64,000 nt of DNA from Agarophyton chilense (lineage: Eukaryota > Rhodophyta > Florideophyceae > Gracilariales > Gracilariaceae), in NCBI GenBank assembly GCA_030374765.1, contig JARGXX010000077.1, positions 1 through 64,000 of the forward strand. The letters are read 5' to 3'. Made by a program: the position numbers and the translations under genes. Shown here piece by piece: positions 1-20,150 of the stretch (the first letter of the stretch is position 1; each line of letters opens with the position of its first letter). The notes beneath the pieces are model-generated. The model was not told where the DNA came from. It saw only the letters and a list, made by a program, of their open reading frames with translations, and searched no databases.

Positions 1-1272
1 GTTTTCAACTTTGGTGGAGTAGCGAGTCTTTGCGACCTCGCGCAACAGGCCGGCAGGGCCGGCCGCGATGAAACCCATCCACTTGCGTCACCATTTATTT
101 CCAGCCCTACTTCAAAACTCGTTACGGAAACTCTTTCTTCGTCCTCATCCAACACAAATGCGTTTGAGGAGAGCCCAATCGCATATATAAACCAAGCACT
201 TTCCACGGAGCGTTGGTTGGAAGCGCAGCATTGGGTCGAATGCAAATCTGTTTGTCGAAGGGAACGCCCCTCTATTTCCACATGGACGGAAAAGAACCAG
301 GCATCTGTCTCTTCTCTCCTTCGGTTCTTAATTGCGATATTTGCAATAGCATCGCAGCTGTCTCCCCCTCTCCACCCCGGAACGAAGCTCCGTTTCCAGC
401 CCCTACATCTTCTGCCTCTCCAGCACGCCCAATCCATTTCACCGTCACCCAGCGCTTCCCCACAAACGAACCCCACGCCGCCAAAAAAACCGTTGCTCAA
501 TCAATCAAACAGAACATCCTTAAACAAACCAAAACACCAACACCAACGGCGGCCCAACACAAAGCCCCAAACCCCACGCCAGTCGTCCACCACGACCCCC
601 CACCTCCACTCCATCGCCGTTGCTGACAACCACGCATCCATCCGCAGCGACCCAATCGCCCACTGTCGCTCATTCTCAATCTCAGTCGCACTCTGCCACC
701 TTCTTTTACACCTTGGAACGAAAAAACACCGCAACAAATCGTGTCACACTTCGAGGAGCTCTCCCGCCGACTTGCCCCTCTCTGTGTGCCATGCTTGCTG
801 CACGAAAAAACGCAAGTGCACTTGACGGACACTCATGCATGCCCCCATTCCCGTCACGATGCTTCAGATGCTTTTCGCCGCACCATATATCGCGCAACTG
901 CAGGTTCGATAAATCATATCGTGCCTCAAGGAACCTGCTACCGTTGCCATCTCGGATTCTGCAAGGGACTCAAAACTCATTCTCAACCGCACACTTTTGG
1001 AACAAGACACTGCATCTTCATTTCGCTCTATCAACTGGCATGGGTCTTGTGGCGAAACATGCTCCAAAACTCGCTCCGAAATTGCACTCCACCTCTTGAC
1101 GGCCGCATGCAATCCAAGTTCAACTCCATTTCCCAATCCTCCCAAGATTCCTCACCCCTCCACCTTGAAATAGACGCCATGTTTCATGATTGTTAACACA
1201 CAACAACCACTTTGCCGTACCCAACATTCTACGCCTTGCAGCTTGTGGAAGTCAACCACAACACTCATTTAA
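1..1272 (+). pseudogene. Helicase copy A, C-terminal remnant (5'-truncated by window edge)
   Basis: The sequence matches copy C from helicase motif VI (QQAGRAGRDG region) through the zinc knuckle to the stop equivalent at 1270-1272. Relative to copy C it carries roughly twenty small insertions and deletions in 1.3 kb, many of them one- or two-base expansions of homopolymers, so no long frame survives. Either this copy is decaying or the consensus is poor near the end of the assembled sequence. Copies B and C lack most of these differences. Confidence 0.85.
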
Positions 1273-1692
1273 GCACGATTTTAGATTCCAACCCGGTACA
1301 ATAAACACCCATTCTTCTTTCTCCATTTTGCTTTCAACTCTCTTCCTTGCCACAGAAAACCACATTTCCTACTCTTTATACTTAAGTATAACGCCAAACA
1401 CCCCATATTCGACCGTTACATTACACCCAAACCAGCAACAAGCGTTATTCAAAACGACTCTATCTCCAGCTCAACCTCAGCCCCTAAATACCCCACTCCG
1501 CCTCAAAAATACAGTGTAACGAAACAACCTACACTCTATATCAGTCCTACACATAAAGCCCAGTACACTTATCGAATGCAGGTCGCTCAACACAGAACTT
1601 TATCCAACCACCGCAGATATCGAGTACACCCTCAAACAATCTGTTCACCACGCATTCGTACTATAATGGAACTTGACGTCTCGACTCTAGAC
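1273..1692. other. 3' spacer of repeat copy A
   Basis: This is about 420 bp between the helicase stop equivalent and the telomere-like tract. It is AC-rich on the plus strand with no convincing gene. The same spacer follows copies B (7196-7616) and C (13098-13518), so it is an integral part of the unit and probably holds the helicase 3' UTR. Confidence 0.7.
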
Positions 1693-1977
1693 TCCTAAAA
1701 CCCCTAAAATCCAATAAACGCAAAGCTTCCCCTAAAAACCCCTAAAGCCCTCCAGCCCCTAAACAATGTTTTCCTCTCCGTAAATAAAAAATCCCATAAA
1801 GGTAAAGTTTCCCCTAAACCCCCTGAACCCCTGAACCCCTGAACCTCTAAAACCCCTAAAACCCCTACACAATGTTTTCCTCTCCGTAACTTCAAAATCC
1901 CATAAAGGTAAAGCTTCTCCTAAAACCCCTAAACCCCTAAACCCCTAAACCCCTAAAACCCTAAACCCCTGAAACCT
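1693..1977 (+). repeat. Telomere-like CCCCTAAA tract, copy A
   Basis: About 3 iterations of a ~105-bp module share the core AATGTTTTCCTCTCCGTAA and CCCATAAAGGTAAAG, separated by CCCCTAAA / CCCCTGAA strings. The last string has about five CCCCTAAA units, one slightly out of phase. The G-rich complement is TTTAGGGG, which looks like a telomere repeat. No perfect terminal telomere is present. Confidence 0.8.
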
Positions 1978-2029
1978 GTAAAAGCCCGTACACAATGGTT
2001 TCCTCTACGAAAACGTAAACTCCCGTAGG

Positions 2030-2935
2030 CCCTGACCGATAGCTACTTAGTGGCGATGCCACTGTTGGACAAACCTTAACGTCATAAGAATCTACCTGTC
2101 ATCGTTAAGCATACGTCATCCCTACCTCACTAAACGCACTGCACGCGTCTTCTTTAGCTGAGAGTGTGGCGCCAGCACTCGCGTGACCTACTACTCACCA
2201 CACTCAACCTACATTGAACTTGGCAATACCATCGAATATCGACCCCCAGTGTTGCCGGATATGAAAACCATCCTAGAACCAAGCGCAAACGCACCTTTTT
2301 CAGCCGCGTACACGACCCCAAAAACGCACATACAAAACGCCTGACAATGTGCCATCTGCCTCCACGAAAATAGCCACAGAACAAGCGCAAACGCATAACA
2401 CAACCCTTTCTTTTGATAAAAATTTCGCACATTATCCAGCTTACAACACAGCTCGACTGTGCAGCGGAGATTGTGGCTGAAACCAAGCGCCTTTGAGTGC
2501 CACACTCGACGCACGCCTCCACGTTGTGCAGCAAAAATGTTACAATAAAACATGTGCAAACGCAGGATTTTTGGCAGAAAGCCCAGCGCGCCTAAAAATT
2601 TATGATTTTTTCAAATGCAAATATTGCGAAAATGGGTGCTGCGCGCCAACATCTGGCAATTCGCGCGCTACGTTACCCGAACGAAGCGCCTGAGCGCAAT
2701 TAGCCACGATTTTTGAGCGTGCCAATGTGTCATACGCGCTCTCCAGCACAACGTTTTTCCATCCAGGGGGTCAAAATCGCACATACGTCGAATGCAGCGC
2801 GTGGCGCTTGGTGTATGTAATTACCAAGCGCTACTGACAACTGCGTTTTTACCAAGCGCCAGCCCACACTTACAACCTGTAATATATATAGGACAAGGGC
2901 AAAACCTCCCTCATCTCGTACCCGACTCAGACCTC
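2030..2935 (+). promoter_or_regulatory. Promoter block of helicase copy B
   Basis: About 900 bp between the telomere-like tract and the helicase start holds no gene of its own. It contains several copies of CCAAGCGC and ends with a TATATATA box at 2882-2890, about 45-55 bp before the ATG at 2936. The block equals those at 7944-8843, 13862-14719 and 14720-15577, apart from small indels here. Confidence 0.65.
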
Positions 2936-5900
2936 ATGTACTGCTACACTACTTCCGTGTTGGATGCCATTCGCATGTCTTCCTCTGGTGAGCTCCCCGC
3001 TCCCTTTCCTCCAAACCCAACATGGCCCAGCGGTCCATAGCGCGCTCAAGCCCTTCTTGCTTCAATCTTTAGCGCCATACCACTCTTTGGATCTCCTCTC
3101 CGTTCGCAACTTCATTGCTTGCGCAAGCGTGATAAGCACCGACCCCAACCCGCCTATCGCTGCCCCCTTGCCGTCTGACCGCACGCCTGAGCCTTACGAC
3201 ACGGTCATTTCTCACGACCCCAACAATACCTCCTTTCGTTTTGCAGCCGCCTCAGATGTGACGCACCTCCTCGCCGCTCTTCAATATGGCATCTGTGCCT
3301 GCGACATACACGAACTGCACGTGCTCTCCAAATCTTCTCCCCTGTTGCAACCTGCCACCCCTGCTTCCGAACGCCCAGTTCACGTTCAAGAACGCATGCG
3401 TACCATCGACGCGGCAATCGACGCTGATTCCAACAACGCCCTTTCCGTTTGTCAGAAAGACACTCACGCTTGCAATGTCCATATCCTCTCGCGAGGAAAT
3501 GTTCGTTTCTTTCCACAATTGTGATGTTCACCCGTCCTGCGGCATAGTGCGTGACACTCACCTCGCCCTCTCAGAAGTCGGCTCTTTGGTTTTAACTCTA
3601 CACAAAGAAATACAACATACTCTTCACAACGACCTGCTTCTTGGCCACGCTCTGCCAACCGGTTTCACAAACGCGCTACACTCACTTCAGGACGACTCCT
3701 TCAACAAAAGCCCAGGCTTTTCTTTCCTTCCCAAACCTCAACAACCGCCCATTTATCGAACAAAACATGGCTTTCGTTTTCACTTGTCTCACGTCTTCCA
3801 TGCCCCACAACTCCAACACCGACCACACTCCGTTTCTTCCGCAACGCAAGCAAAACGGTACCTTTCCCCGCACACAACTGCCCACAACCGACATTTTTGG
3901 GCACCGATATGTTCACGCATGCGTTGTCGAGGTGGCTCTCATGTGCACAGAAAATCAAGAACGCCTGTTGGTTGCGCTACACCTTTCGTCGGGCTCTCCT
4001 GCGCGCGGCACAGAGATTGAGACATACCGTATCCACAACGACCAACACTTTCAACGTTGTCTCATGCTCATCGACGAAAAATCGCCTGTCCTCATTTGCC
4101 GGTACATGAAAACGCGAAACAGCAAAGGGGCCGCCACTCCGATTGCTCGCTTTCCCGATGCCCAAACATCCCGTCTTCTGCTCATGTACTTGACTCTGAT
4201 ACGTCCGTTTGAAGCATATATCGTCCGCTGCCTACACGGAGAAAACTGTTTCCAGATGCATTGGAAAATGCTGTTCGCCAACTGCGGAATTCCGTATGCC
4301 GCAAACACCATCCGCTCGATAATCAGCTCTCACTTGAGCAAACGCGGTTTCCCGATATCCTTCAACGACTATAGAAACTTCACCGTGGGAATGACCAACA
4401 CAGTTTCCAATGTCACCGCATCTTCTGTAGCCGATCACATCTTGGAAGAGCTATTGACCACTGCCCATGGCCAGGCGGGCCACTCTGCGCACACCGCCGC
4501 TTTTCTTTACGCTCGTACACCACATGACATATCCGGTTTGCAGCACTCTCAACTTTCCAAATATCGCGAGTGGTCCAGCAAATGGCACCAGTATCTCGGT
4601 CTTCTTCTTAATGCTCCCCTCACCCAACAACAACAACAACAACAACACCACAGAAAACGTCCGGTTACTGACACAGTTCTACCTACACCTGAACCAAAGC
4701 GCTCCATCCATACATCGCAGCCAACCCCGTCCCCTCCCACTGACCGCTCTGCGATCCCCCATTCTCAAATCAACCTAAACCTGGCCGCCTCTCATCCTTT
4801 CAATCCACATCCGCCTGCTTTTATGGCAGCCGCCATACCGCGCGGTGGAGCTTCTCTCTTACAACAACCGCTTGTGACCTACGAACATATTACATCAGAA
4901 ATGCTCCGAGCACTAAGACAGGCACTTTCCAACGACTCCGCTTTATTCAAGTCCCACCAACAATTTGTGAACACAGCGGCCGTGTACAACAGGCTGTCCA
5001 ACATGCTACTACTCCAGCCGACTGGATCTGGAAAAACACTATCTCTTCTGCTCCCCGTCTTCATGGAAAAGGGCAAATACTCCACCGTTCTCATCACCCC
5101 TCTCACAGCCTTGCTCAGTGAATACGAACTGCGCGCTCAGCTCTTCGGCCTTCGTGCTTCTCGTACACCCACCCCTCCCGGATCGCACTCCTTTGCCGAC
5201 ATTTACATCTTTTCCGCTGAAAGACTTTCTCTTCCTTCTTTTACAGAGTTCACCACGCGACTGATCGCCGCCGACCGCCTCGCCCGCATTGCCATCGATG
5301 AATGTCACTTATTTCTTTTATGGCAACACTTTCGCCCGTGCTTGGCCAACCTCCACAACTGCTTCGGCCATATTCCCACAAAGATCCCTCGCGTGCTTTT
5401 AAGCGCGACAGTGCCGCCGCGCGACCGCCCCCTTCTTCTGTCGCAGCTGCATATCCCGAACGCGCATGTGTACGCTTCTTCGACTGCAAGAAACAACATT
5501 TCTTTTGTCGTGTATCAGCTAAGCTCAGCCCCCAGCACTTCGCGTGCCACACGCTTTCGCGCCGCTCATGGCCACTTTCAGGATGTGTTTGGATACCTGC
5601 TTCAGCTGGGCGTCTCAATCATGCAAGAGCATGTGGCTCGATTGCTTCACTCGTCGGCTGACACAACCCTAGCTCGCGTTCTTATATTCTCGTTAACACG
5701 CCCGGCTGCCGAAGCTGTCCATGAAGCTCTCGCCGCTTCGCGTTCTTATTTTGGTGCCCTTAAACAATCCACTACTGTCACGGTTCTCCTGTACCATTCT
5801 GGTCTCTCCGATGTTCGTAAACGCCGGGCTCACACCCTTTGGAACTCTCCGCCTTCTTCCAGCGCACCCACAACCAACCACATTCTCTTCATGGTTTGCA

Positions 5901-7195
5901 CCTCTTCTTTTGGTACGGGCATCGACGTTCCCAACGTTCGCCTGGTTTTTCAACTTTGGTGGAGTAGCGAGTCTTTGCGACCTCGCGCAACAGGCCGGCA
6001 GGGCCGGCCGCGATGGAAACCCATCCACTTGCGTCACCATTTATTTCCAGCCCTACTTCAAACTCGTTACGGAAACTCTTTCTTCGTCCTCATCCAACAC
6101 AAATGCGTTTGAGGAGCCCAATCGCATATACAACCAAGCACTTTCCACGGAGCGTTGGTTGGAAGCGCAGCATTGGGTCGAATGCAAATCTGTTTGTCGA
6201 AGGAACGCCCTCTATTTCCACATGGACGGAAAAGAACCAGGCATCTGTCTCTTCTCTCCTTCGGTTCTTAATTGCGATATTTGCAATAGCATCGCAGCTG
6301 TCTCCCCCTCTCCCACCCCGGAACGAAGCTCCGTTTCCGCTACCCCTTCTGCCTCTCAGCACGCCCAATCCATTTCACCGTCACCCAGCGCTTCCCCACA
6401 AACGCCCACGCCGCCAAAAAACCGTGCCAATCAATCAAACAGAACATCCTTAAACAACCAAAACACCAACACCAACGGCGGCCCAACACAAAGCCCCAAA
6501 CCCCACGCCAGTCGTCCACCACGACCCCCCACCTCCACTCCATCGCCGTTGCTGACAACCACGCATCCATCCGCAGCGACCCAATCGCCCACTGTCGCTC
6601 ATTCTCAATCTCAGTCGCACTCTGCCACCTTCTTTTACACCTTGGAACGAAAAACACCGCAACAAATCGTGTCACACTTCGAGGAGCTCTCCCGCCGACT
6701 TGCCCCTCTCTGTGTGCCATGCTTGCTGCACGAAAAAACGCAAGTGCACTTGACGGACACTCATGCATGCCCCCATTCCCGTCAACGATGCTTCAGATGC
6801 TTTTCGCCGCACCATATATCGCGCAACTGCAGGTTCGATAAATCACCTCAAGGAACCTGCTACCGTTGCCATCTCGGATTCTGCAAGGGACTCAAAACTC
6901 ATTCTCAACCGCACACTTTTGGAACAAGACACTGCATCTTCATTTCGCTCTATCAACTGGCATGGGTCTTGTGGCGAACATGCTCCAAAACTCGCTCCGA
7001 AATTGCACTCCACCTCTTTGACGGCCGCATGCAATCCAAGTTCAACTCCATTTCCCAATCCTCCCAAGATTCCTCACCCTCCACCTTGAAATAGACGCCA
7101 TGTTTCATGATTGGTTAACACACAACAACCACTTTGCCGTACCCAACATTCTACGCCTTGCAGCTTGGTGGAAGTCAACCACAACACTCATTTAA
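2936..7195 (+). pseudogene. Recombinase-helicase copy B, frame-interrupted
   Basis: Nearly identical to the 1417-codon copy C along its whole length, with the same start and stop positions. About six single-base indels, nearly all in homopolymer runs (for example in the A run shortly after the start and in the T run before motif VI), plus one 3-base insertion, split the frame. The middle segment stays open from 3641 to about 5950 and holds the Walker A, DECH and SAT motifs. The few, homopolymer-biased differences could be sequencing errors, so the gene may be intact in the organism. I list it as a pseudogene because the given sequence does not read through. Confidence 0.8.
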
Positions 7196-7616
7196 GCACG
7201 ATTTTAGATTCCAACCCGGTACAATAAACACCCATTCTTCTTTCTCCATTTTGCTTTCAACTCTCTTCCTTGCCACAGAAAACCACATTTCCTACTCTTT
7301 ATACTTAAGTATAACGCCAAACACCCCATATTCGACCGTTACATTACACCCAAACCAGCAACAAGCGTTATTCAAACGACTCTATCTCCAGCTCAACCTC
7401 AGCCCCTAAATACCCCAACTCCGCCTCAAAAATACAGTGTAACGAAACAACCTACACTCTATATCAGTCCTACACATAAAGCCCAGTACACTTATCGAAT
7501 GCAGGTCGCTCAACACAGAACTTTATCCAACCACCGCAGATATCGAGTACACCCTCAAACAATCTGTTCACCACGCATTCGTACTATAATGGAACTTGAC
7601 GTCTCGACTCTAGACT
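7196..7616. other. 3' spacer of repeat copy B
   Basis: Gene-free spacer matching the one after copies A and C. It holds an AATAAA-like ACAATAAACACC shortly after the stop, a possible polyadenylation signal. Confidence 0.6.
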
Positions 7617-7890
7617 CCTAAAACCCCTAAAATCCAATAAACGCAAAGCTTCCCCTAAAACCCCTAAAGCCCTCCAGCCCCTAAACAATGTTTTCCTCTC
7701 CGTAAATAAAAAATCCCATAAAGGTAAAGTTTCCCCTAAACCCCCTGAACCCCTGAACCCCTGAACCTCTAAAACCCCTAAAACCCCTACACAATGTTTT
7801 CCTCTCCGTAACTTCAAAATCCCATAAAGGTAAAGCTTCTCCTAAAACCCCTAAACCCCTAAACCCCTAAACCCCTAAACCCCTGAAACC
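7617..7890 (+). repeat. Telomere-like CCCCTAAA tract, copy B
   Basis: Same modular structure as copy A. The terminal uninterrupted run contains four CCCCTAAA units before CCCCTGAAA. The unit count differs from copies A (about five) and C (six), which shows slippage or telomere-type turnover inside an otherwise nearly constant repeat. Confidence 0.82.
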
Positions 7891-7943
7891 TGTAAAAGCC
7901 CGTACACAATGGTTTCCTCTACGAAAACGTAAACTCCCGTAGG

Positions 7944-8843
7944 CCCTGACCGATAGCTACTTAGTGGCGATGCCACTGTTGGACAAACCTTAACGTCATA
8001 AGAATCTACCTGTCATCGTTAAGCATACGTCATCCCTACCTCACTAAACGCACTGCACGCGTCTTCTTTAGCTGAGAGTGTGGCGCCAGCACTCGCGTGA
8101 CCTACTACTCACCACACTCAACCTACATTGAACTTGGCAATACCATCGAATATCGACCCCCAGTGTTGCCGGATATGAAAACCATCCTAGAACCAAGCGC
8201 AAACGCACCTTTTTCAGCCGCGTACACGACCCCAAAAACGCACATACAAAACGCCTGACAATGTGCCATCTGCCTCCACGAAATAGCCACAGAACCAAGC
8301 GCAAACGCATAACACAACCCTTTCTTTTGATAAAAATTTCGCACATTATCCAGCTTACAACACAGCTCGACTGTGCAGCGGAGATGTGGCTGAAACCAAG
8401 CGCCTTTGAGTGCCACACTCGACGCACGCCTCCACGTTGTGCAGCAAAAATGTTACAATAAAACATGTGCAAACGCAGGATTTGGCAGAAAGCCCAGCGC
8501 GCCTAAAATTTATGATTTTTTCAAATGCAAATATTGCGAAAATGGGTGCTGCGCGCCAACATCTGGCAATTCGCGCGCTACGTTACCCGAACGAAGCGCC
8601 TGAGCGCAATTAGCCACGATTTTTTGAGCGTGCCAATGTGTCATACGCGCTCTCCAGCACAACGTTTTCCATCCAGGGGGTCAAAATCGCACATACGTCG
8701 AATGTAGCGCGTGGCGCTTGGTGTATGTAATTACCAAGCGCTACTGACAACTGCGTTTTACCAAGCGCCAGCCCACACTTACAACCTGTAATATATATAG
8801 GACAAGGGCAAACCTCCCTCATCTCGTACCCGACTCAGACCTC
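7944..8843 (+). promoter_or_regulatory. Promoter block of helicase copy C
   Basis: Gene-free 900 bp upstream of the intact helicase. The 8-mer CCAAGCGC occurs at 8193-8200, 8295-8302, 8396-8403, 8734-8741 and 8761-8768, and inverted at 8714-8721. Related GCGC-containing words lie between. The last copies cluster just upstream of the TATA box, as transcription-factor sites would. The palindromic GCGC core faintly recalls E2F-type sites, but this is only a resemblance. Confidence 0.6.
8789..8800 (+). promoter_or_regulatory. TATA box of helicase copy C
   Basis: TAATATATATAG lies 44-55 bp before the ATG at 8844. The expected start of transcription about 30 bp downstream would leave a 5' UTR of some 15-25 nt. 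The same box precedes copy B and ends both copies of the duplicated promoter block. Confidence 0.55.
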
Positions 8844-11800
8844 ATGTACTGCTACACTACTTCCGTGTTGGATGCCATTCGCATGTCTTCCTCTGGTGAG
8901 CTCCCCGCTCCCTTTCCTCCAACCCAACATGGCCCAGCGGTCCATAGCGCGCTCAAGCCCTTCTTGCTTCAATCTTTAGCGCCATACCACTCTTTGGATC
9001 TCCTCTCCGTTCGCAACTTCATTGCTTGCGCAAGCGTGATAAGCACCGACCCCAACCCGCCTATCGCTGCCCCCTTGCCGTCTGACCGCACGCCTGAGCC
9101 TTACGACACGGTCATTTCTCACGACCCCAACAATACCTCCTTTCGTTTTGCAGCCGCCTCAGATGTGACGCACCTCCTCGCCGCTCTTCAATATGGCATC
9201 TGTGCCTGCGCCATACACGAACTGCACGTGCTCTCCAAATCTTCTCCCCTGTTGCAACCTGCCACCCCTGCTTCCGAACGCCCAGTTCACGTTCAAGAAC
9301 GCATGCGTACCATCGACGCGGCAATCGACGCTGATTCCAACAACGCCCTTTCGTTTGTCAGAAAGACACTCACGCTTGCAATGTCCATATCCTCTCGCGA
9401 GGAAATGTTCGTTTCTTTCCACAATTGTGATGTTCACCCGTCCTGCGGCATAGTGCGTGACACTCACCTCGCCCTCTCAGAAGTCGGCTCTTTGGTTTTA
9501 ACTCTACACAAAGAAATACAACATACTCTTCACAACGACCTGCTTCTTGGCCACGCTCTGCCAACCGGTTTCACAAACGCGCTACACTCACTTCAGGACG
9601 ACTCCTTCAACAAAAGCCCAGGCTTTTCTTTCCTTCCCAACCTCAACAACCGCCCATTTATCGAACAAAACATGGCTTTCGTTTTCACTTGTCTCACGTC
9701 TTCCATGCCCCACAACTCCAACACCGACCACACTCCGTTTCTTCCGCAACGCAAGCAAAACGGTACCTTTCCCCGCACACAACTGCCCACAACCGACATT
9801 TTGGGCACCGATATGTTCACGCATGCGTTGTCGAGGTGGCTCTCATGTGCACAGAAAATCCAAGAACGCCTGTTGGTTGCGCTACACCTTTCGTCGGGCT
9901 CTCCTGCGCGCGGCACAGAGATTGAGACATACCGTATCCACAACGACCAACACTTTCAACGTTGTCTCATGCTCATCGACAAATCGCCTGTCCTCATTTG
10001 CCGGTACATGAAAACGCGAAACAGCAAAGGGGCCGCCACTCCGATTGCTCGCTTTCCCGATGCCCAAACATCCCGTCTTCTGCTCATGTACTTGACTCTG
10101 ATACGTCCGTTTGAAGCATATATCGTCCGCTGCCTACACGGAGAAAACTGTTTCCAGATGCATTGGAAAATGCTGTTCGCCAACTGCGGAATTCCGTATG
10201 CCGCAAACACCATCCGCTCGATAATCAGCTCTCACTTGAGCAAACGCGGTTTCCCGATATCCTTCAACGACTATAGAAACTTCACCGTGGGAATGACCAA
10301 CACAGTTTCCAATGTCACCGCATCTTCTGTAGCCGATCACATCTTGGAAGAGCTATTGACCACTGCCCATGGCCAGGCGGGCCACTCTGCGCACACCGCC
10401 GCTTTTCTTTACGCTCGTACACCACATGACATATCCGGTTTGCAGCACTCTCAACTTTCCAAATATCGCGAGTGGTCCAGCAAATGGCACCAGTATCTCG
10501 GTCTTCTTCTTAATGCTCCCCTCACCCAACAACAACAACAACAACAACACCACAGAAAACGTCCGGTTACTGACACAGTTCTACCTACACCTGAACCAAA
10601 GCGCTCCATCCATACATCGCAGCCAACCCCGTCCCCTCCCACTGACCGCTCTGCGATCCCCCATTCTCAAATCAACCTAAACCTGGCCGCCTCTCATCCT
10701 TTCAATCCACATCCGCCTGCTTTTATGGCAGCCGCCATACCGCGCGGTGGAGCTTCTCTCTTACAACAACCGCTTGTGACCTACGAACATATTACATCAG
10801 AAATGCTCCGAGCACTAAGACAGGCAATTTCCAACGACTCCGCTTTATTCAAGTCCCACCAACAATTTGTGAACACAGCGGCCGTGTACAACAGGCTGTC
10901 CAACATGCTACTACTCCAGCCGACTGGATCTGGAAAAACACTATCTCTTCTGCTCCCCGTCTTCATGGAAAAGGGCAAATACTCCACCGTTCTCATCACC
11001 CCTCTCACAGCCTTGCTCAGTGAATACGAACTGCGCGCTCAGCTCTTCGGCCTTCGTGCTTCTCGTACACCCACCCCTCCCGGATCGCACTCCTTTGCCG
11101 ACATTTACATCTTTTCCGCTGAAAGACTTTCTCTTCCTTCTTTTACAGAGTTCACCACGCGACTGATCGCCGCCGACCGCCTCGCCCGCATTGCCATCGA
11201 TGAATGTCACTTATTTCTTTTATGGCAACACTTTCGCCCGTGCTTGGCCAACCTCCACAACTGCTTCGGCCATATTCCCACAAAGATCCCTCGCGTGCTT
11301 TTAAGCGCGACAGTGCCGCCGCGCGACCGCCCCCTTCTTCTGTCGCAGCTGCATATCCCGAACGCGCATGTGTACGCTTCTTCGACTGCAAGAAACAACA
11401 TTTCTTTTGTCGTGTATCAGCTAAGCTCAGCCCCCAGCACTTCGCGTGCCACACGCTTTCGCGCCGCTCATGGCCACTTTCAGGATGTGTTTGGATACCT
11501 GCTTCAGCTGGGCGTCTCAATCATGCAAGAGCATGTGGCTCGATTGCTTCACTCGTCGGCTGACACAACCCTAGCTCGCGTTCTTATATTCTCGTTAACA
11601 CGCCCGGCTGCCGAAGCTGTCCATGAAGCTCTCGCCGCTTCGCGTTCTTATTTTGGTGCCCTTAAACAATCCACTACTGTCACGGTTCTCCTGTACCATT
11701 CTGGTCTCTCCGATGTTCGTAAACGCCGGGCTCACACCCTTTGGAACTCTCCGCCTTCTTCCAGCGCACCCACAACCAACCACATTCTCTTCATGGTTTG

Positions 11801-13097
11801 CACCTCTTCTTTTGGTACGGGCATCGACGTTCCCAACGTTCGCCTGGTTTTCAACTTTGGTGGAGTAGCGAGTCTTTGCGACCTCGCGCAACAGGCCGGC
11901 AGGGCCGGCCGCGATGGAAACCCATCCACTTGCGTCACCATTTATTTCCAGCCCTACTTCAAACTCGTTACGGAAACTCTTTCTTCGTCCTCATCCAACA
12001 CAAATGCGTTTGAGGAGCCCAATCGCATATACAACCAAGCACTTTCCACGGAGCGTTGGTTGGAAGCGCAGCATTGGGTCGAATGCAAATCTGTTTGTCG
12101 AAGGAACGCCCTCTATTTCCACATGGACGGAAAAGAACCAGGCATCTGTCTCTTCTCTCCTTCGGTTCTTAATTGCGATATTTGCAATAGCATCGCAGCT
12201 GTCTCCCCCTCTCCCACCCCGGAACGAAGCTCCGTTTCCGCTACCCCTTCTGCCTCTCAGCACGCCCAATCCATTTCACCGTCACCCAGCGCTTCCCCAC
12301 AAACGCCCACGCCGCCAAAAAACCGTGCCAATCAATCAAACAGAACATCCTTAAACAACCAAAACACCAACACCAACGGCGGCCCAACACAAAGCCCCAA
12401 ACCCCACGCCAGTCGTCCACCACGACCCCCCACCTCCACTCCATCGCCGTTGCTGACAACCACGCATCCATCCGCAGCGACCCAATCGCCCACTGTCGCT
12501 CATTCTCAATCTCAGTCGCACTCTGCCACCTTCTTTTACACCTTGGAACGAAAAACACCGCAACAAATCGTGTCACACTTCGAGGAGCTCTCCCGCCGAC
12601 TTGCCCCTCTCTGTGTGCCATGCTTGCTGCACGAAAAAACGCAAGTGCACTTGACGGACACTCATGCATGCCCCCATTCCCGTCAACGATGCTTCAGATG
12701 CTTTTCGCCGCACCATATATCGCGCAACTGCAGGTTCGATAAATCACCTCAAGGAACCTGCTACCGTTGCCATCTCGGATTCTGCAAGGGACTCAAAACT
12801 CATTCTCAACCGCACACTTTTGGAACAAGACACTGCATCTTCATTTCGCTCTATCAACTGGCATGGGTCTTGTGGCGAACATGCTCCAAAACTCGCTCCG
12901 AAATTGCACTCCACCTCTTTGACGGCCGCATGCAATCCAAGTTCAACTCCATTTCCCAATCCTCCCAAGATTCCTCACCCCTCCACCTTGAAATAGACGC
13001 CATGTTTCATGATTGGTTAACACACAACAACCACTTTGCCGTACCCAACATTCTACGCCTTGCAGCTTGGTGGAAGTCAACCACAACACTCATTTAA
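8844..13097 (+). CDS. Tyrosine-recombinase-like / RecQ-like helicase fusion protein
   Basis: A 1417-residue open frame without introns. The motor has superfamily 2 RecQ-type motifs: Walker A QPTGSGKT (692-699), DECH (786-789), SAT (821-823), an arginine-finger motif QQAGRAGRDG (1016-1025). Its normal role would be ATP-driven 3'-5' DNA unwinding in the nucleus. Residues 1283-1296 form a perfect CX2CX4HX4C zinc knuckle, with more Cys/His after it. The N-terminal half (about 340-545) resembles a tyrosine recombinase: R356 in RGTEIETYR, K390, R478 in DYRNF, and H514...Y523 in GHSxxTxxxxY, with the usual 9-residue H-to-Y spacing. A Q run (about 562-568) and a Pro/Ser/Thr-rich linker separate the halves; a second low-complexity linker (about 1095-1200) precedes the knuckle. 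The fold assignment of the N-terminal half is inference; the helicase call is firm. The start is the first ATG after a TATA box. Confidence 0.92.
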   Translation: MYCYTTSVLDAIRMSSSGELPAPFPPTQHGPAVHSALKPFLLQSLAPYHSLDLLSVRNFIACASVISTDPNPPIAAPLPSDRTPEPYDTVISHDPNNTSFRFAAASDVTHLLAALQYGICACAIHELHVLSKSSPLLQPATPASERPVHVQERMRTIDAAIDADSNNALSFVRKTLTLAMSISSREEMFVSFHNCDVHPSCGIVRDTHLALSEVGSLVLTLHKEIQHTLHNDLLLGHALPTGFTNALHSLQDDSFNKSPGFSFLPNLNNRPFIEQNMAFVFTCLTSSMPHNSNTDHTPFLPQRKQNGTFPRTQLPTTDILGTDMFTHALSRWLSCAQKIQERLLVALHLSSGSPARGTEIETYRIHNDQHFQRCLMLIDKSPVLICRYMKTRNSKGAATPIARFPDAQTSRLLLMYLTLIRPFEAYIVRCLHGENCFQMHWKMLFANCGIPYAANTIRSIISSHLSKRGFPISFNDYRNFTVGMTNTVSNVTASSVADHILEELLTTAHGQAGHSAHTAAFLYARTPHDISGLQHSQLSKYREWSSKWHQYLGLLLNAPLTQQQQQQQHHRKRPVTDTVLPTPEPKRSIHTSQPTPSPPTDRSAIPHSQINLNLAASHPFNPHPPAFMAAAIPRGGASLLQQPLVTYEHITSEMLRALRQAISNDSALFKSHQQFVNTAAVYNRLSNMLLLQPTGSGKTLSLLLPVFMEKGKYSTVLITPLTALLSEYELRAQLFGLRASRTPTPPGSHSFADIYIFSAERLSLPSFTEFTTRLIAADRLARIAIDECHLFLLWQHFRPCLANLHNCFGHIPTKIPRVLLSATVPPRDRPLLLSQLHIPNAHVYASSTARNNISFVVYQLSSAPSTSRATRFRAAHGHFQDVFGYLLQLGVSIMQEHVARLLHSSADTTLARVLIFSLTRPAAEAVHEALAASRSYFGALKQSTTVTVLLYHSGLSDVRKRRAHTLWNSPPSSSAPTTNHILFMVCTSSFGTGIDVPNVRLVFNFGGVASLCDLAQQAGRAGRDGNPSTCVTIYFQPYFKLVTETLSSSSSNTNAFEEPNRIYNQALSTERWLEAQHWVECKSVCRRNALYFHMDGKEPGICLFSPSVLNCDICNSIAAVSPSPTPERSSVSATPSASQHAQSISPSPSASPQTPTPPKNRANQSNRTSLNNQNTNTNGGPTQSPKPHASRPPRPPTSTPSPLLTTTHPSAATQSPTVAHSQSQSHSATFFYTLERKTPQQIVSHFEELSRRLAPLCVPCLLHEKTQVHLTDTHACPHSRQRCFRCFSPHHISRNCRFDKSPQGTCYRCHLGFCKGLKTHSQPHTFGTRHCIFISLYQLAWVLWRTCSKTRSEIALHLFDGRMQSKFNSISQSSQDSSPLHLEIDAMFHDWLTHNNHFAVPNILRLAAWWKSTTTLI

Positions 13098-13518
13098 GCA
13101 CGATTTTAGATTCCAACCCGGTACAATAAACACCCATTCTTCTTTCTCCATTTTGCTTTCAACTCTCTTCCTTGCCACAGAAAACCACATTTCCTACTCT
13201 TTATACTTAAGTATAACGCCAAACACCCCATATTCGACCGTTACATCACACCCAACCCAGCAACAAGCGTTATTCAAACGACTCTATCTCCAGCTCAACC
13301 TCAGCCCCTAAATACCCCAACTCCGCCTCAAAAATACAGTGTAACGAAACAACCTACACTCTATATCAGTCCTACACATAAAGCCCAGTACACTTATCGA
13401 ATGCAGGTCGCTCAACACAGAACTTTATCCAACCACCGCAGATATCGAGTACACCCTCAAACAATCTGTTCACCACGCATTCGTACTATAATGGAACTTG
13501 ACGTCTCGACTCTAGACT
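13098..13518. other. 3' spacer of repeat copy C
   Basis: Gene-free spacer as in the other copies, with ACAATAAACACC shortly after the stop as a possible polyadenylation signal. Confidence 0.6.
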
Positions 13519-13808
13519 CCTAAAACCCCTAAAATCCAATAAACGCAAAGCTTCCCCTAAAACCCCTAAAGCCCTCCAGCCCCTAAACAATGTTTTCCTC
13601 TCCGTAAATAAAAAATCCCATAAAGGTAAAGTTTCCCCTAAACCCCCTGAACCCCTGAACCCCTGAACCTCTAAAACCCCTAAAACCCCTACACAATGTT
13701 TTCCTCTCCGTAACTTCAAAATCCCATAAAGGTAAAGCTTCTCCTAAAACCCCTAAACCCCTAAACCCCTAAACCCCTAAACCCCTAAACCCCTAAACCC
13801 CTGAAACC
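13519..13808 (+). repeat. Telomere-like CCCCTAAA tract, copy C
   Basis: Three imperfect ~105-bp modules end in six perfect CCCCTAAA units, the longest run of the three copies. The complement TTTAGGGG is the candidate telomere repeat of this organism or element. Confidence 0.83.
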
Positions 13809-13861
13809 TGTAAAAGCCCGTACACAATGGTTTCCTCTACGAAAACGTAAACTCCCGTAGG

Positions 13862-14719
13862 CCCTGACCGATAGCTACTTAGTGGCGATGCCACTGTTGG
13901 ACAAACCTTAACGTCATAAGAATCTACCTGTCATCGTTAAGCATACGTCATCCCTACCTCCCTAAACGCACTGCACGCGTCTTCTTTAGCTGAGAGTGTG
14001 GCGCCAGCACTCGCGTGACCTACTACTCACCACACTCAACCTACATTGAACTTGGCAATACCATCGAATATCGACCCCCAGTGTTGCCGGATATGAAAAC
14101 CATCCTAGAACCAAGCGCAAACGCACCTTTTTCAGCCGCGTACACGACCCCAAAAACGCACATACAAAACGCCTGACAATGTGCCATCTGCCTCCACGAA
14201 ATAGCCACAGAACCAAGCGCAAACGCATAACACAACCCTTTCTTTTGATAAAAATTTCGCACATTATCCAGCTTACAACACAGCTCGACTGTGCAGCGGA
14301 GATGTGGCTGAAACCAAGCGCCTTTGAGTGCCACACTCGACGCACCCCTCCACGTTGTGCAGCAAAAATGTTACAATAAAACATGTGCAAACGCAGGATT
14401 TGGCAGAAAGCCCAGCGCGCCTAAAATTTATGATTTTTTCAAATGCAAATATTGCGAAAATGGGTGCTGCGCGCCAACATCTGGCAATTCGCGCGCTACG
14501 TTACCCGAACGAAGCGCCTGAGCGCAATTAGCCACGATTTTTTGAGCGTGCCAATGTGTCATACGCGCTCTCCAGCACAACGTTTTCCATCCAGGGGGTC
14601 AAAATCGCACATACGTCGAATGCAGCGCGTGGCGCTTGGTGTATGTAATTACCAAGCGCTACTGACAACTGCGTTTTACCAAGCGCCAGCCCACACTTAC
14701 AACCTGTAATATATATAGG
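13862..14719 (+). repeat. 858-bp promoter block, first tandem copy
   Basis: This is the block that normally leads into a helicase gene, from CCCTGACCG to the TATATATAGG box. Here it is not followed by the helicase but by a second copy of itself. Junction bases TAGG occur at both block borders, so the duplication looks like recombination at a 4-base microhomology. Confidence 0.9.
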
Positions 14720-15577
14720 CCCTGACCGATAGCTACTTAGTGGCGATGCCACTGTTGGACAAACCTTAACGTCATAAGAATCTACCTGTCATCGTTAAGC
14801 ATACGTCATCCCTACCTCACTAAACGCACTGCACGCGTCTTCTTTAGCTGAGAGTGTGGCGCCAGCACTCGCGTGACCTACTACTCACCACACTCAACCT
14901 ACATTGAACTTGGCAATACCATCGAATATCGACCCCCAGTGTTGCCGGATATGAAAACCATCCTAGAACCAAGCGCAAACGCACCTTTTTCAGCCGCGTA
15001 CACGACCCCAAAAACGCACATACAAAACGCCTGACAATGTGCCATCTGCCTCCACGAAATAGCCACAGAACCAAGCGCAAACGCATAACACAACCCTTTC
15101 TTTTGATAAAAATTTCGCACATTATCCAGCTTACAACACAGCTCGACTGTGCAGCGGAGATGTGGCTGAAACCAAGCGCCTTTGAGTGCCACACTCGACG
15201 CACGCCTCCACGTTGTGCAGCAAAAATGTTACAATAAAACATGTGCAAACGCAGGATTTGGCAGAAAGCCCAGCGCACCTAAAATTTATGATTTTTTCAA
15301 AAGCAAATATTGCGAAAATGGGTGCTGCGCGCCAACATCTGGCAATTCGCGCGCTACGTTACCCGAACGAAGCGCCTGAGCGCAATTAGCCACGATTTTT
15401 TGAGCGTGCCAATGTGTCATACGCGCTCTCCAGCACAACGTTTTCCATCCAGGGGGTCAAAATCGCACATACGTCGAATGCAGCGCGTGGCGCTTGGTGT
15501 ATGTAATTACCAAGCGCTACTGACAACCGCGTTTTACCAAGCGCCAGCCCACACTTACAACCTGTAATATATATAGG
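14720..15577 (+). repeat. 858-bp promoter block, second tandem copy
   Basis: Same length and nearly the same sequence as 13862-14719. It ends at TATATATAGG, exactly where the first copy ended, and then meets unrelated retrotransposon DNA at 15578. The helicase promoter therefore points directly into the antisense strand of a retroelement. Confidence 0.9.
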
Positions 15578-16389
15578 CGCCACCGCATTAAGCGGCCAGA
15601 AGGATCTGCGATGTTCAGCAGCCACCTCAACGAGGAATGGTCCGTGTACACGGTGAAATGAACGCCCATGAGGTATGGGCGCAGAGTGGATAGCGCCCAA
15701 ACCACTGCTAGGCACTCCTTCTCGGAGACCGAGTAGTTGCGCTCGTGGACGTTCAGCGTGTGGGACCAATAGCCAGTTGGTTTGCGTTCCCCCTCGGGGG
15801 TGGTTTGGAACAGTGCGCAGCCCACCTGGCGGTCGCTGGCGTCGGTGTCGATGGAGTAGGGAAGCCCAGGTTTGGACCAGGATAGGATGGGAGCTGTCGT
15901 AACTGCCTTAATCAAGGAGCGAAAAGATTCCGACTGATCGGTGGTAAATGGCGCAAGCTTCGGTGGCTGGCCCTTCCGCAGTAGCGCGTTTAGCGGAGCG
16001 GCGATATCCGAGAAACTCGGTATAAACCGTCGATAGACGTTGACCAGACCTAAAAAGGATCGGAGCTCCGTTTGAGTACGGGGCTCCTTCGCCTCACAGA
16101 GGGATTTGATACGAACTTGTTCGATCATTAACCGTCCTGGACGGATGACGTGCCCGAGATAATTCACCGTGTCGGTGAAGAACTCGCACTTCCTCAACTT
16201 GAGGGTTATTCCTGCGTCTCGCAGTACGGTCATCACGTCCCGCACGTGGGTCAGGTGATCGTCCAGGTTTCTGGGAAAGACAATGATGTCGTCCAAGTAG
16301 ACAAGGCACGTGCGCCACTTGAAACGCGACATCAGTATGTCTATTGCCCTTTGAAAGGTGGCCGGTGCATTGGTTAAACCAAACGGCAT
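15578..16389 (-). pseudogene. Reverse transcriptase / RNase H part of the first Ty3/Gypsy fossil
   Basis: The translation shows the RT core with the YLDD active site, the FLGLVNVYRRFIP connection region and an RNase H domain with its early acidic motif (DTDASD). It is cut by the subtelomere-like array at its C-terminal side. Role in an active element: copying genomic RNA into DNA. Confidence 0.88.
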
Positions 16390-16644
16390 CCGCTTGAAGC
16401 GGTAGGAACCCGAGTGGCAAACAAACGCGGTTTTGTCCCGGTCCTCTTCCAGGACTGGGACTTACCAGTAGCCCCAGTTAGCATCCAGAGCCGTAAACAC
16501 GGTAGCGTCCCCGAGCGAGTCTATACACTCGTCCATGCGCGGAATCGGGTAGGTGTCCCTCACGGTGACGGCCTTGAGGCGGCGGTAGTCAACGCAAAAC
16601 CGCTACGTGCCGTCAGCCTTGAGGGCCAGCACCACCGGTGAAGC

Positions 16645-17997
16645 CTAAGGAGATTGGGCGGGCTCGATGACTCCAGCACGGAGCATCTTGTCCACCTGAA
16701 ATTCTTCCTCCTCCCGAGCTTTTGGTCCCACCCTGTAAGGGGGTTGTGCAACCGGACGTGCGTCCGGTAGCAAGTTTATCCGATGTTCGGTTGTATTGAT
16801 CTCACCCAGTGAGCCGTCCCACATTGTGGTAAACTCGCGTAACATTCCGCGTAAGCGGTCCCGGTGTGAGATCGGTACATGACTCAGGTCCAGGTCCTCG
16901 AGGGCCTTGATCGGGTCTATCTTATCGTAGCTCGTAGGCTGTGCCCTGGTGTCAGGTGTGGGAACCGACGAGGTCGGAAATTCATCCGTCTTGACGGTTT
17001 TATCGAGCGCCAAGTGCTGTGCCTCCCCGGGGGTTTCTGCACCGGATACCGGGAGACCATCCTCGGTAGAGGGAGTTATTCTGAGTACTTTGGCAGCCGT
17101 CACCTTTGTAGGGAGCATCGCGAGCGGGTGCGGCGCCACAGACCCAATGACTTGGTTCTTTGCCAGCGTCTGGGGAGCCTTTCCCAGATTGGCAACCAAC
17201 ACCCTGAAAGGGGAATTCGGCGTGACTTGCACGATTCCGTTCGCAACGGTTAACAGAAATTTCTCGTACAACGAGGGCAAGGGCTGAACAACCCGAAGAC
17301 CGTGTTGACGGGAATTGACTGAAACCATAACCTGGCTCTCCGGGGGGATGGTGACTGACGAGGCAACGCGTAGCTTCGTAGAATCCCGGTTCGCCGGTGT
17401 GGGTTCCTGCGCAGCAGGTAGGGGAACGTGTTTCCTCGATGCCCGCTTCAGCGGTTGACAAACAATGGGGACGGTCGATCCGTCCTCAAGTTCCACCTGC
17501 TTAAGGCGTGGGCGGATGGCGTCGACAAACCTGTCGCAGTAGTCACATCCCAGTATAACTGGCACGGCCAGCGAGCGGCACACAATAAAAGTTAGTTTAA
17601 CCACCATCCGCCCTAGCCTGACGACCAGGTCGATCACACCAACCGTTTTCAACGGGTTGTTATTGGCGTCTGAGACGTCGGGTACCGTTTCAGAACGGAT
17701 GAGTGACCGCAATGGCGGGGGTAAAACCGGTTCCACAATAAAGTTCGGCCCAGCACCTGTATCCAGGACAGTGAGATATCTCACAATAAACTGCGTGTGC
17801 AGACCGAGGTCAGCGTAAACCTTGTAGTTACGCTTGGCCATTACCAAGACTCTATCCGAGATCCGGTTATTTCTAATCCGTATCCACGGTCGACGCAAAA
17901 CACCGACGTGTTTAGAGTTCGCGTCTGCGGTGTCCTTCCTTGTCAGTATTTTCACCGGGGAGCGAGGCATCGGCGCCTCGGGCGTCGTCAGCCTCAA
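16645..17997 (-). pseudogene. Aspartic protease and RT-linker part of the first Ty3/Gypsy fossil
   Basis: A retropepsin-type motif (LDTGAGPN) lies near residue 80 and marks the protease that processes the polyprotein. The remainder is a long linker leading to the RT start. The IGG-type flap motif is replaced by ILGCDY, which is usual in this group. Confidence 0.8.
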
Positions 17998-18032
17998 CTC
18001 TGAGGACGCCTCTCCCGAAGGGGAGACTCACT

Positions 18033-18806
18033 CTATTCTTTTCCCTGTACAGGGTCCTGGTCGGGCGAAGGCCCGACTTCCTCGGCAACGAGTGCATGAT
18101 TCCGTTGCACGGTAGCTACCGCAGGAGCGGGTTGAGATCCACCAGCGTGGTTTGGCGCTAGTGCGGCGCGTGCCGGCTGAGCCGGTTTGTACCGAGAATT
18201 CGGAGTGTGAGCCAATGCGTTGGGGAAGTCCGTCTTCGCGCGGAGATATGACGTGAGTGGCACGGAGCCCTTCTCCTGCGGGGAGAGGGCTTCGTAATTA
18301 TCCACCACTCGCGCCATATCGCGTAGCGATAAAAGGCATTGCGGGGAGGTGTGCCCGCGCTCGTAGCACAAGTGGCACACCAACGTCACTCCCGCGTTTC
18401 GCGGTACGGCATTCCGAGCATCGGTGTATCTTCCGGGTTCCCGGTTTCCAACCCATCCAGGGCGCTGACTTCGTGTCATTCCGTTCGAGTACGGCATACG
18501 GGGGGCCGGAGTGCGGCGGTCATTAAGATAAAAGACCTGCCCGTTCTCCGTGTCCCTTGCGGTTGAGTCAACCGAGCCATCCGTTGTAGACGGTAATTCC
18601 GTTGTCGGAATAGATAAACCATCGTGATGGATGACATTCATATTGTCATAACCCTGTTTGGGGATGCCATCCGTCGCAAATGACGGTGAAGAAGAGTCCG
18701 ACTCAAGCAGCAATGCTTTAGCGGCCTTCGACCGGGTTCCCGGATTGCGTGCACGTAGTGCATCTCCCTCTGCGCGGGCAAACTGTACGAGTTCAAGGTA
18801 GGTCAC
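18033..18806 (-). pseudogene. Nucleocapsid region of the first Ty3/Gypsy fossil
   Basis: Contains a zinc knuckle CHLCYERGHTSPQC of CX2CX4HX4C type, the RNA-binding part of Gag. It directly follows the gag frame on the same strand with only a few bases between. Confidence 0.78.
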
Positions 18807-18812
18807 CTTCGG

Positions 18813-20150
18813 CTATTGTTCCCTGTAACGGGCGACAAGAGTCTTGATGGCTAGATCCAAGCCATCAATGAACATCGTACAGCGTTCCCCAGCGGGGTAT
18901 ACATTACCACAACGGTGGAAAGCCTTATTCAGGCGTACCGAGTAATCGGTCTTGAGCTCGCCGGAGCGTTGTCGAGTGTCTCGCAAAGCGAGTATCGCCG
19001 CTTGTATCGCGGAGTTGGTTGCGTAGGAACGCAGGAGGTACTGCACGGCCTCGGGCCAGCAGGTCACACCTCTTTCGGAGGCTCGCGACGAGCCCCGAAC
19101 CGACAAAAACTGATCTTCAGCGACACCCCGAAGAAAGTAGGGTAGCGCCACATAGGCTTGTCCTTCGTTCATTCCGAGTATATCGGCTTCCGCTACAAAG
19201 CGGTGTAGGAAATCCAAGACCAGAATTGGATCATCCCCAGTAAACGACTGTTTACGAAGTGAAAGCTGCATCCGCTTGATGCAGTCTTTCACTTTACCCG
19301 TGTCACGCGGTGTCCGACCTAAGGAGGAATCTTCTAGCCGGTAATACCGGTAGGACAGGAGTGTCCTGTACAGAGGGTTGGTGGGCTTCAAGGGTTTGAG
19401 TCCCGGATGTCGCCGACCCTTGGGGCGCGACCGGATGGCCCCGTAGGTGGCAGAGGACCGCTTTGAGCGGGAAGAGCGCCCATAATGATCCTGTGGGTCA
19501 TCACTCACCGACGAATCGGAACTCTCCGAGTCACTCGGTTTACCGTCCGACTCAGATGATGAATCGGACGGGTGTCCGTGCTTACGGTTAGAATCCCGGT
19601 TCTTCCGGCTCTTACAGTTCCGCGACTGGGTCTCTCGATGAGAGACAACCGGTATAGTCGCGTTCGCGGGCGAGGTTAACGTCCTCTCGACCGACTCAAG
19701 TCGGCTTCGGAGACGCTCGAAGCGATTCTCCATACCTTCTGCGAAGGAAGACGGAGCGCCAAAACACTCGAGTAGTGTATTGACGTCCGACCGCAATACG
19801 CGGATATCCTCGGCTAACTCAATTGGAGGGGGGCTAGCGAGGCTTCCTCGTAAAGAGGTGAACTCCCTCGAGAGGGTATTGTGTGCAGCCCGAAGGGAGC
19901 GGAGCTGCTCTTCCAAGCGTACAATCCGCGCTTGGTTGACCAACCGCGGAGGCGGAGAAACCACCGTTGCGACGGTCGTTAACCCGGAATCGGGCTGCGG
20001 GTCTTCAGTGCCGGTGACCGGTATCTCCCGGGAATCCGGTGTTGGAGCCAGGGCCTGTGGAACATTAGTGCCCCTGGCATCACCGCTTTGGCGGGAACGG
20101 CTGCGTGTTGCAGAAGGCTCCATGCTAGGCGGTTTTTTGGCCTTGGCCAC
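18813..20150 (-). pseudogene. Gag (capsid) region of the first Ty3/Gypsy fossil
   Basis: A 445-codon frame with a disordered Ser/Arg-rich N-terminal half and a helical C-terminal half (about 250-440). The latter resembles the retrotransposon gag domain, including FLHRFVAEAD and a block ending MFIDGL. The leader between this frame and the presumed LTR (20151-20820) holds no other gene. Confidence 0.75.

Follow-up and report, generated by a model that had tools for sequence, protein, structure and literature searches.

The window analyzed here is a 64,000-nucleotide stretch at the start of contig JARGXX010000077.1 of the red alga Agarophyton chilense (assembly GCA_030374765.1), and it opens with tandem repeat units coding for a protein that resembles the telomere-linked helicases (TLHs). 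Such helicases have been known for decades at fungal chromosome ends, and their role is not agreed. In the third unit, the gene is a left-truncated copy that begins after the junction at 8799/8800; the first 431 residues of the complete 1848-amino-acid (aa) protein are missing from it. The full protein (from copy L004) comprises, in order, OrsD-type zinc fingers (an OrsD double zinc-finger region at residues 96-203), a helical part, a recombinase-like domain, a RecQ-like motor, and a CCHC knuckle. Pfam matched the window protein to DEAD (residues 685-827) and Helicase_C (residues 911-1025), and the knuckle was recognized by eye, in agreement with an initial annotation, made from the letters alone, that had proposed a fusion to these two parts. 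The helicase part scored 92 bits with TIGR00614, below the cutoff of 219.8. Pfam gave the full-length protein three matches, which include neither the RQC/zinc-binding nor the HRDC domains of the RecQ family proper. At least 33 near-identical copies of the gene (98 to 100% identity) are present in the 79.8-Mb assembly, 33 of 929 candidates having been scored; an open frame of 1876 to 1880 codons was found in 23 of the 33, and 31 had no internal stop.

Sixteen protein relatives (P0001-P0005 and P0010-P0020) were aligned with the window protein. P0005 comes from Pholiota, and P0010-P0020 come from Gymnopilus, Amanita, Phlegmacium, Infundibulicybe (two), Collybia, Galerina, Suillus, Gelatoporia, and Gloeophyllum, plus one JGI protein; search matches P0006-P0009 (RecQ, HRQ1, and Lhr-type) were not used. 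Pfam found DEAD in 14 of the relatives, Helicase_C in 12, and OrsD in 9. The mushroom relatives carry a similar GHSxxTxxxxY block, as the initial annotation had noted for fungal helicases. Trees were weakly resolved and separated only algal-type from mushroom sequences; the helicase tree held 14 of the 17 sequences, the other three having ≤250 residues in the helicase part.

Within the recombinase-like domain, where identity to the window sequence is 19 to 36% (alignment A3), the 17-row alignment has 13 invariant columns out of 227 (G352, R356, T358, E359, R373, Y388, K390, L417, P422, F445, R478, H514, and Y523). Among these are the five residues that had been put forward as a catalytic set, which follow the R-K-R-H-Y order of tyrosine recombinases (YRs) and are kept in 17/17 sequences at identities down to ~19%; loss of conservation in homologues, which would have spoken against that proposal, was not observed. 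H514 and Y523 fall within GHSAHTAAFLY (H-x8-Y). Of the 47 R, K, H, or Y positions in residues 326-552, 7 are invariant, and the chance that five named beforehand would all be invariant is 1.4e-5. Asn in place of the HxxR His, also noted earlier, was confirmed as N475.

Two AlphaFold models place the domain within the catalytic-domain fold of the tyrosine recombinase superfamily, the outcome that the structural check proposed in the initial annotation had looked for. YR, type IB topoisomerase (TopIB), or protelomerase entries made up 34 of 37 top PDB rows for one model and 17 of 17 for the other, with type IB topoisomerases and the protelomerase TelK present among the matches. Considering the predicted fold together with the active site, we regard the middle domain as very likely a tyrosine recombinase, and probably an active one that has been overlooked in a TLH.

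Several results weigh against this assignment. Foldseek by itself was weak (best integrase row, E 0.12), the structure-comparison tool warns that helical models can reach such Z scores by chance, and both models are of low confidence at or next to K390, H514, and Y523 or the corresponding residues. The 17 rows show no conservation of the HxxR His (position R-3 is N,S,L,G,L,Q,Q,N,A,N,Q,A,N,N,N,S,N); this His is variable among some recombinases. Pfam searches of the 17 members gave no recombinase family among 25 of 28 matched families listed, and PHROGs and NCBIfam searches of 15 members gave none. A 15-row profile (A5, made without P0004, which has a long insertion, and without P0017, a near-duplicate of P0013) had 0 matches to PDB sequences with the E limit set at 10. 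Alignment by hhalign to six bacterial or phage recombinases was no better than to seven unrelated proteins and reversed controls. No profile search therefore linked the domain to the superfamily, and the profile check suggested earlier failed, with no match to Crypton, phage-integrase, or other recombinase profiles. In particular, Pfam matched neither a Crypton-type YR (DUF3504-like) nor GCR1_C in P0001, in P0002, or in the algal protein in its window and full-length forms, and both were absent from the same 25 of 28 families. For two relatives, P0012 (from Phlegmacium) and P0018, the search listing gave no match to a helicase.

Of 26 full-type copies, 25 are located toward a contig end and have the 5′ side facing outward, and 21 of the 26 are within 30 kb of the end. 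This count covers 26 of 37 places, those on contigs of >90 kb and known size (4 others are on contigs of <60 kb), and the search pattern is blind to truncated copies such as those of the window. No terminal telomere repeats were seen at contig ends. From the orientation and repetition of the copies, we infer that the contig ends bearing them are chromosome ends, which accords with the location first proposed. Collinearity among contigs extends 10 to 13 kb outward at ~97 to 100% identity. Internal or deeper copies are decayed, judging from two examined in part (C4:1103022 and C68:72382), because, as read by eye, one carries a frameshift in the recombinase region and the other has an in-frame stop and H replacing R356.

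The centromere-side end of the repeated block is fixed (...TGTAATATATATA): many copies agree as far as one particular base, CCTGTAATATATATA, and diverge beyond it. We read 51 block ends, all of them undiverged in their last bases, and these were followed by 35 different 40-base strings. The joined DNA included four distinct positions in the helicase-recombinase gene, the methylase gene described below, telomere-like arrays, the terminal segment itself, satellites, retroelement DNA, and DNA for which the sequence examined offered no counterpart. Thirty ends came from full, 100% identical matches to a 120-base query that ran through the block end into the next two Gs, so that GG was selected there; the remaining 21, from stretches obtained for other reasons, were followed by GG (17) or GA (4). 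Nine classes of unselected ends had an intact counterpart (7 GG and 2 GA; preceding base A in 7 and C in 2), and in 9/9 the G after the block end belonged to the joined DNA too. Including selected ends, there were 16 classes (14 GG and 2 GA; preceding base A in 11, T in 2, and C in 3), not all of them independent, as those at the two telomere-like sites are paralogues of each other and whole arrays may have been copied; 14 of the 51 ends fell outside these classes, with a poor intact counterpart or none. On that strand of the block, GG occupies 3.7% and AGG 0.63% of positions. Compared with this background, G(G/A) at the joins indicates either a short rule for the target or sharing of two bases. 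The terminal segment also holds 23 of the window's 24 CCAAGCGC motifs, against 2.2 expected in the whole window. The 12-10-12 inverted repeat within this cluster sits 55 bp before the fixed end, with a small palindrome, TTACAACCTGTAA, next to it; the palindrome was seen in a predicted fold that as a whole lacks significance (z, -1.46).

Features of the window are collected in Table 1. They bear out the subtelomeric repeat named in the initial annotation. It was found to consist of two tandem units of ~5.9 kb and partial units on either side.

Table 1. Coordinates of the repeat units, gene, and recombinase-like domain in the window
Feature	Position	Strand	Remark
First unit	1..2890	+	cut at contig start
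Second tandem unit	2891..8799	+	coding frame ~2964-7194 broken by frameshifts
Third tandem unit, 5918 bp	8800..14717	+	starts GGACAAGGGC right after fixed end of unit 2
Open reading frame (ORF), 1417 aa	8844..13097	+	left-truncated copy of 1848-aa OrsD-YR-helicase-CCHC gene
Tyrosine-recombinase-like domain, residues 326-552	9819..10499	+	alignment and predicted structure
R356, box I arginine	9909..9911	+	invariant 17/17
K390, lysine beside predicted beta hairpin	10011..10013	+	invariant 17/17
R478, box II arginine	10275..10277	+	invariant 17/17; N (N475) instead of His at R-3
H514	10383..10385	+	invariant 17/17
Y523, presumed nucleophile	10410..10412	+	invariant 17/17
RecQ-like superfamily 2 (SF2) helicase core (DEAD and Helicase_C), residues 685-1025	10896..11918	+	
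CCHC zinc knuckle CFRCFSPHHISRNC	12690..12731	+	by-eye reading; relative P0002 has a weak zf-CCHC match
3′ flank of the gene, within repeat unit	13098..13560	+	
Telomere-like CCCCTAAA arrays within third unit	13500..13830	+	
Terminal 0.89-kb segment	13831..14717	+	up to fixed end ...TTACAACCTGTAATATATATA
Inverted repeat GTGGCGCTTGGT-N10-ACCAAGCGCTAC (12-10-12)	14629..14662	+	candidate binding site in CCAAGCGC cluster; binding is a guess
Short fourth unit, 858 bp	14718..15575	+	terminal segment only; fixed end abuts Ty3-like retroelement DNA

Small indels, many of them homopolymeric, were dense in window positions 1-9000 (35 and 45 gap openings versus the inner unit); the inner terminal segments compared with each other had 0 gap openings. 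We suggest that assembly errors close to the contig end, and not true decay, account for the frame breaks of the second unit. Degenerate CCCCTAAA telomere-like arrays were found in every unit (1736-1983, 7652-7890, and 13554-13808), and the assembly has 0 places with four perfect repeats of CCCTAA or CCCTAAA. Directly inward of the tandem array are Ty3-like pieces at 15517-20150 and 21214-23406, which include reverse transcriptase/RNase H domains on the minus strand and RNase H and an integrase core on the plus strand.

Outward of the full gene lies a gene for an N6/N4 DNA methylase-SET fusion (L010:827-4165, on C107; Pfam N6_N4_Mtase, 2.1e-16, and SET, 1.3e-5), with 45 matching rows genome-wide, six of them from three paralogues of ~39% identity. 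None was seen among the ORFs of the truncated window units. Near a 39%-identical paralogue on C12, no recombinase neighbor was found by eye among the ORFs of 8.1 kb on one side. Beyond the methylase gene come satellites and then a third long ORF region (L018:114-3381, minus strand), with 738 and 367 aa in two frames and no Pfam match. The satellites flanking the block have repeats of ~773 bp outward (L009 and L018, beyond the methylase gene) and of ~840 bp inward, the latter with GGGGTTTAG (C107:23000-28200). Light-harvesting proteins (9 rows) and phycobilisome linkers (13 rows, seven on the plastid-like contig C39 and six on other contigs) are encoded in the assembly. Their joint presence points to a red alga, and a fungal host was rejected.

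We favor enzyme-directed joining because one block combines a fixed end, the G(G/A) rule, repeated sites close to that end, and a gene for the predicted recombinase-helicase. The reading toward which we lean, by a little better than an even chance, is that a TLH gene with an intact R-K-R-H-Y recombinase belongs to a selfish subtelomeric block, spread by Y523 joining the fixed end to GG. The zinc fingers and recombinase would bind the CCAAGCGC sites near the centromere-side end of the block, Y523 would cut between TATATATA and GG, and the cut end would be joined to GG on another, often shortened, chromosome end, with the helicase opening DNA for copying or strand exchange. Repeated rounds could then produce an array of a full block, left-truncated older blocks, and other DNA. 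Catalysis, binding at CCAAGCGC, and the making of junctions by this protein are all presumed here, and its role in spreading is the best but unproven reading of the data. The left end of the block was not found, which tells against simple insertion.

Homologous recombination would be able to copy the arrays without the recombinase-helicase. It is possible, although we consider it rather unlikely, that the recombinase fold serves the helicase as a DNA-binding, nicking, or TopIB-like telomere module and that host homologous recombination or break-induced replication spreads the subtelomeres. The topoisomerases and TelK among the structural matches are consistent with such a module, and the near-identity of the collinear blocks, as under gene conversion, and the junctions common to array copies, as if whole arrays had been copied, are consistent with such spreading. 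However, the complete R-K-R-H-Y set with H-x8-Y kept in all 17 sequences speaks against this reading, and one end on many different G-starting acceptors would be unexpected from homologous copying alone. The shared G at the joins is also expected from microhomology-primed repair, and the fixed end might instead be the 3′ end of a unit put on broken ends by end-primed synthesis, either by HeT-A-like reverse transcription or by microhomology-primed replication at CC-3′/TC-3′, with the recombinase-helicase as a passenger. HeT-A-type telomeric retroelements have a fixed centromere-side end, an eroded telomere-side end, and a single orientation. The algal arrays have this geometry, and the two-base sharing at junctions fits priming. 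In addition, for the single acceptor tested, CACAGG in the TLH gene, the reciprocal half was not seen at 37 places (9 read directly and the others via gene coordinates or contig sequence), a result that fits end-primed synthesis and counts against enzyme-directed joining. We nevertheless judge end-primed synthesis improbable: no reverse transcriptase was noticed by eye among the distal-block ORFs (the domain scan covered the methylase gene and the third ORF), shared blocks of 10 to 13 kb with two genes and satellites are long for an RNA template, and a telomerase RNA-binding-domain match in the genome makes a substitute unneeded. On the last ground, telomerase replacement was also rejected.

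In relation to known systems, the domain shares with XerA/XerH, Cre, and other tyrosine recombinases the predicted fold, the order R, K, R, H, Y, and an H-to-Y spacing of 9, but its R-K (34) and R-H (36) spacings are longer, the HxxR His is unconserved, and sequence similarity is undetectable. Helitrons combine a helicase and a tyrosine-based strand-transfer enzyme in one protein and have a fixed end with a small palindrome nearby. The algal block likewise has a tyrosine enzyme-helicase fusion, a fixed end, and the palindrome, yet it differs in having a recombinase-type fold rather than an HUH Rep, a RecQ-like rather than a Pif1-like helicase, and GG/GA rather than AT as the target. Crypton YR transposons, as outlined in the available part of one account (PMC3212892), are eukaryotic DNA elements with a tyrosine recombinase, short end repeats, and no inverted ends. 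In comparison, the algal gene has helicase and OrsD regions fused to the recombinase, and its arrays are linked to chromosome ends; for Crypton-type short direct repeats, we found one fixed end followed by GG/GA. The proposal of a Crypton-like element was thus not upheld, there being no Crypton profile match and no element with two defined ends.

The closest likeness is to the TLHs of Ustilago maydis (UTASa/UTASb) and Agaricus bisporus var. burnettii (RecQ), proteins compared here by description only, with which the algal gene shares a RecQ-like helicase core and a subtelomeric multicopy location, seen here as contig ends. An OrsD domain is reported for U. maydis UTASb in the portion available of PMC10532341, and mushroom relatives have a similar architecture. 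The host here is a red alga, and a recombinase domain is undescribed in those proteins as far as the excerpted accounts go: that of PMC7473861 reports no domains found beyond the helicase core in A. bisporus and other fungal subtelomeric RecQ proteins, and states that A. bisporus var. bisporus lacks subtelomeric RecQ genes and has telomeres without apparent abnormality. Titles and abstract openings among the literature matches listed likewise describe no tyrosine recombinase in TLHs. It is doubtful, though conceivable, that the algal block represents a new class of eukaryotic mobile element, in which a recombinase-helicase attaches its entire subtelomeric block by a single fixed end to GG/GA at chromosome ends.

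If the conserved recombinase site is real, TLHs would move from presumed telomere helpers to likely mobile or selfish enzymes, and the same fused enzyme would be present in red algae and mushrooms, lineages that are far apart. Such an enzyme would offer a testable mechanism for subtelomeres becoming identical between chromosomes and could explain how chromosome-end DNA spreads. Should the block prove to be a new class of element, it would parallel Helitrons and HeT-A with a tyrosine recombinase as its enzyme, one hidden in helicases long presumed to act in telomere maintenance.

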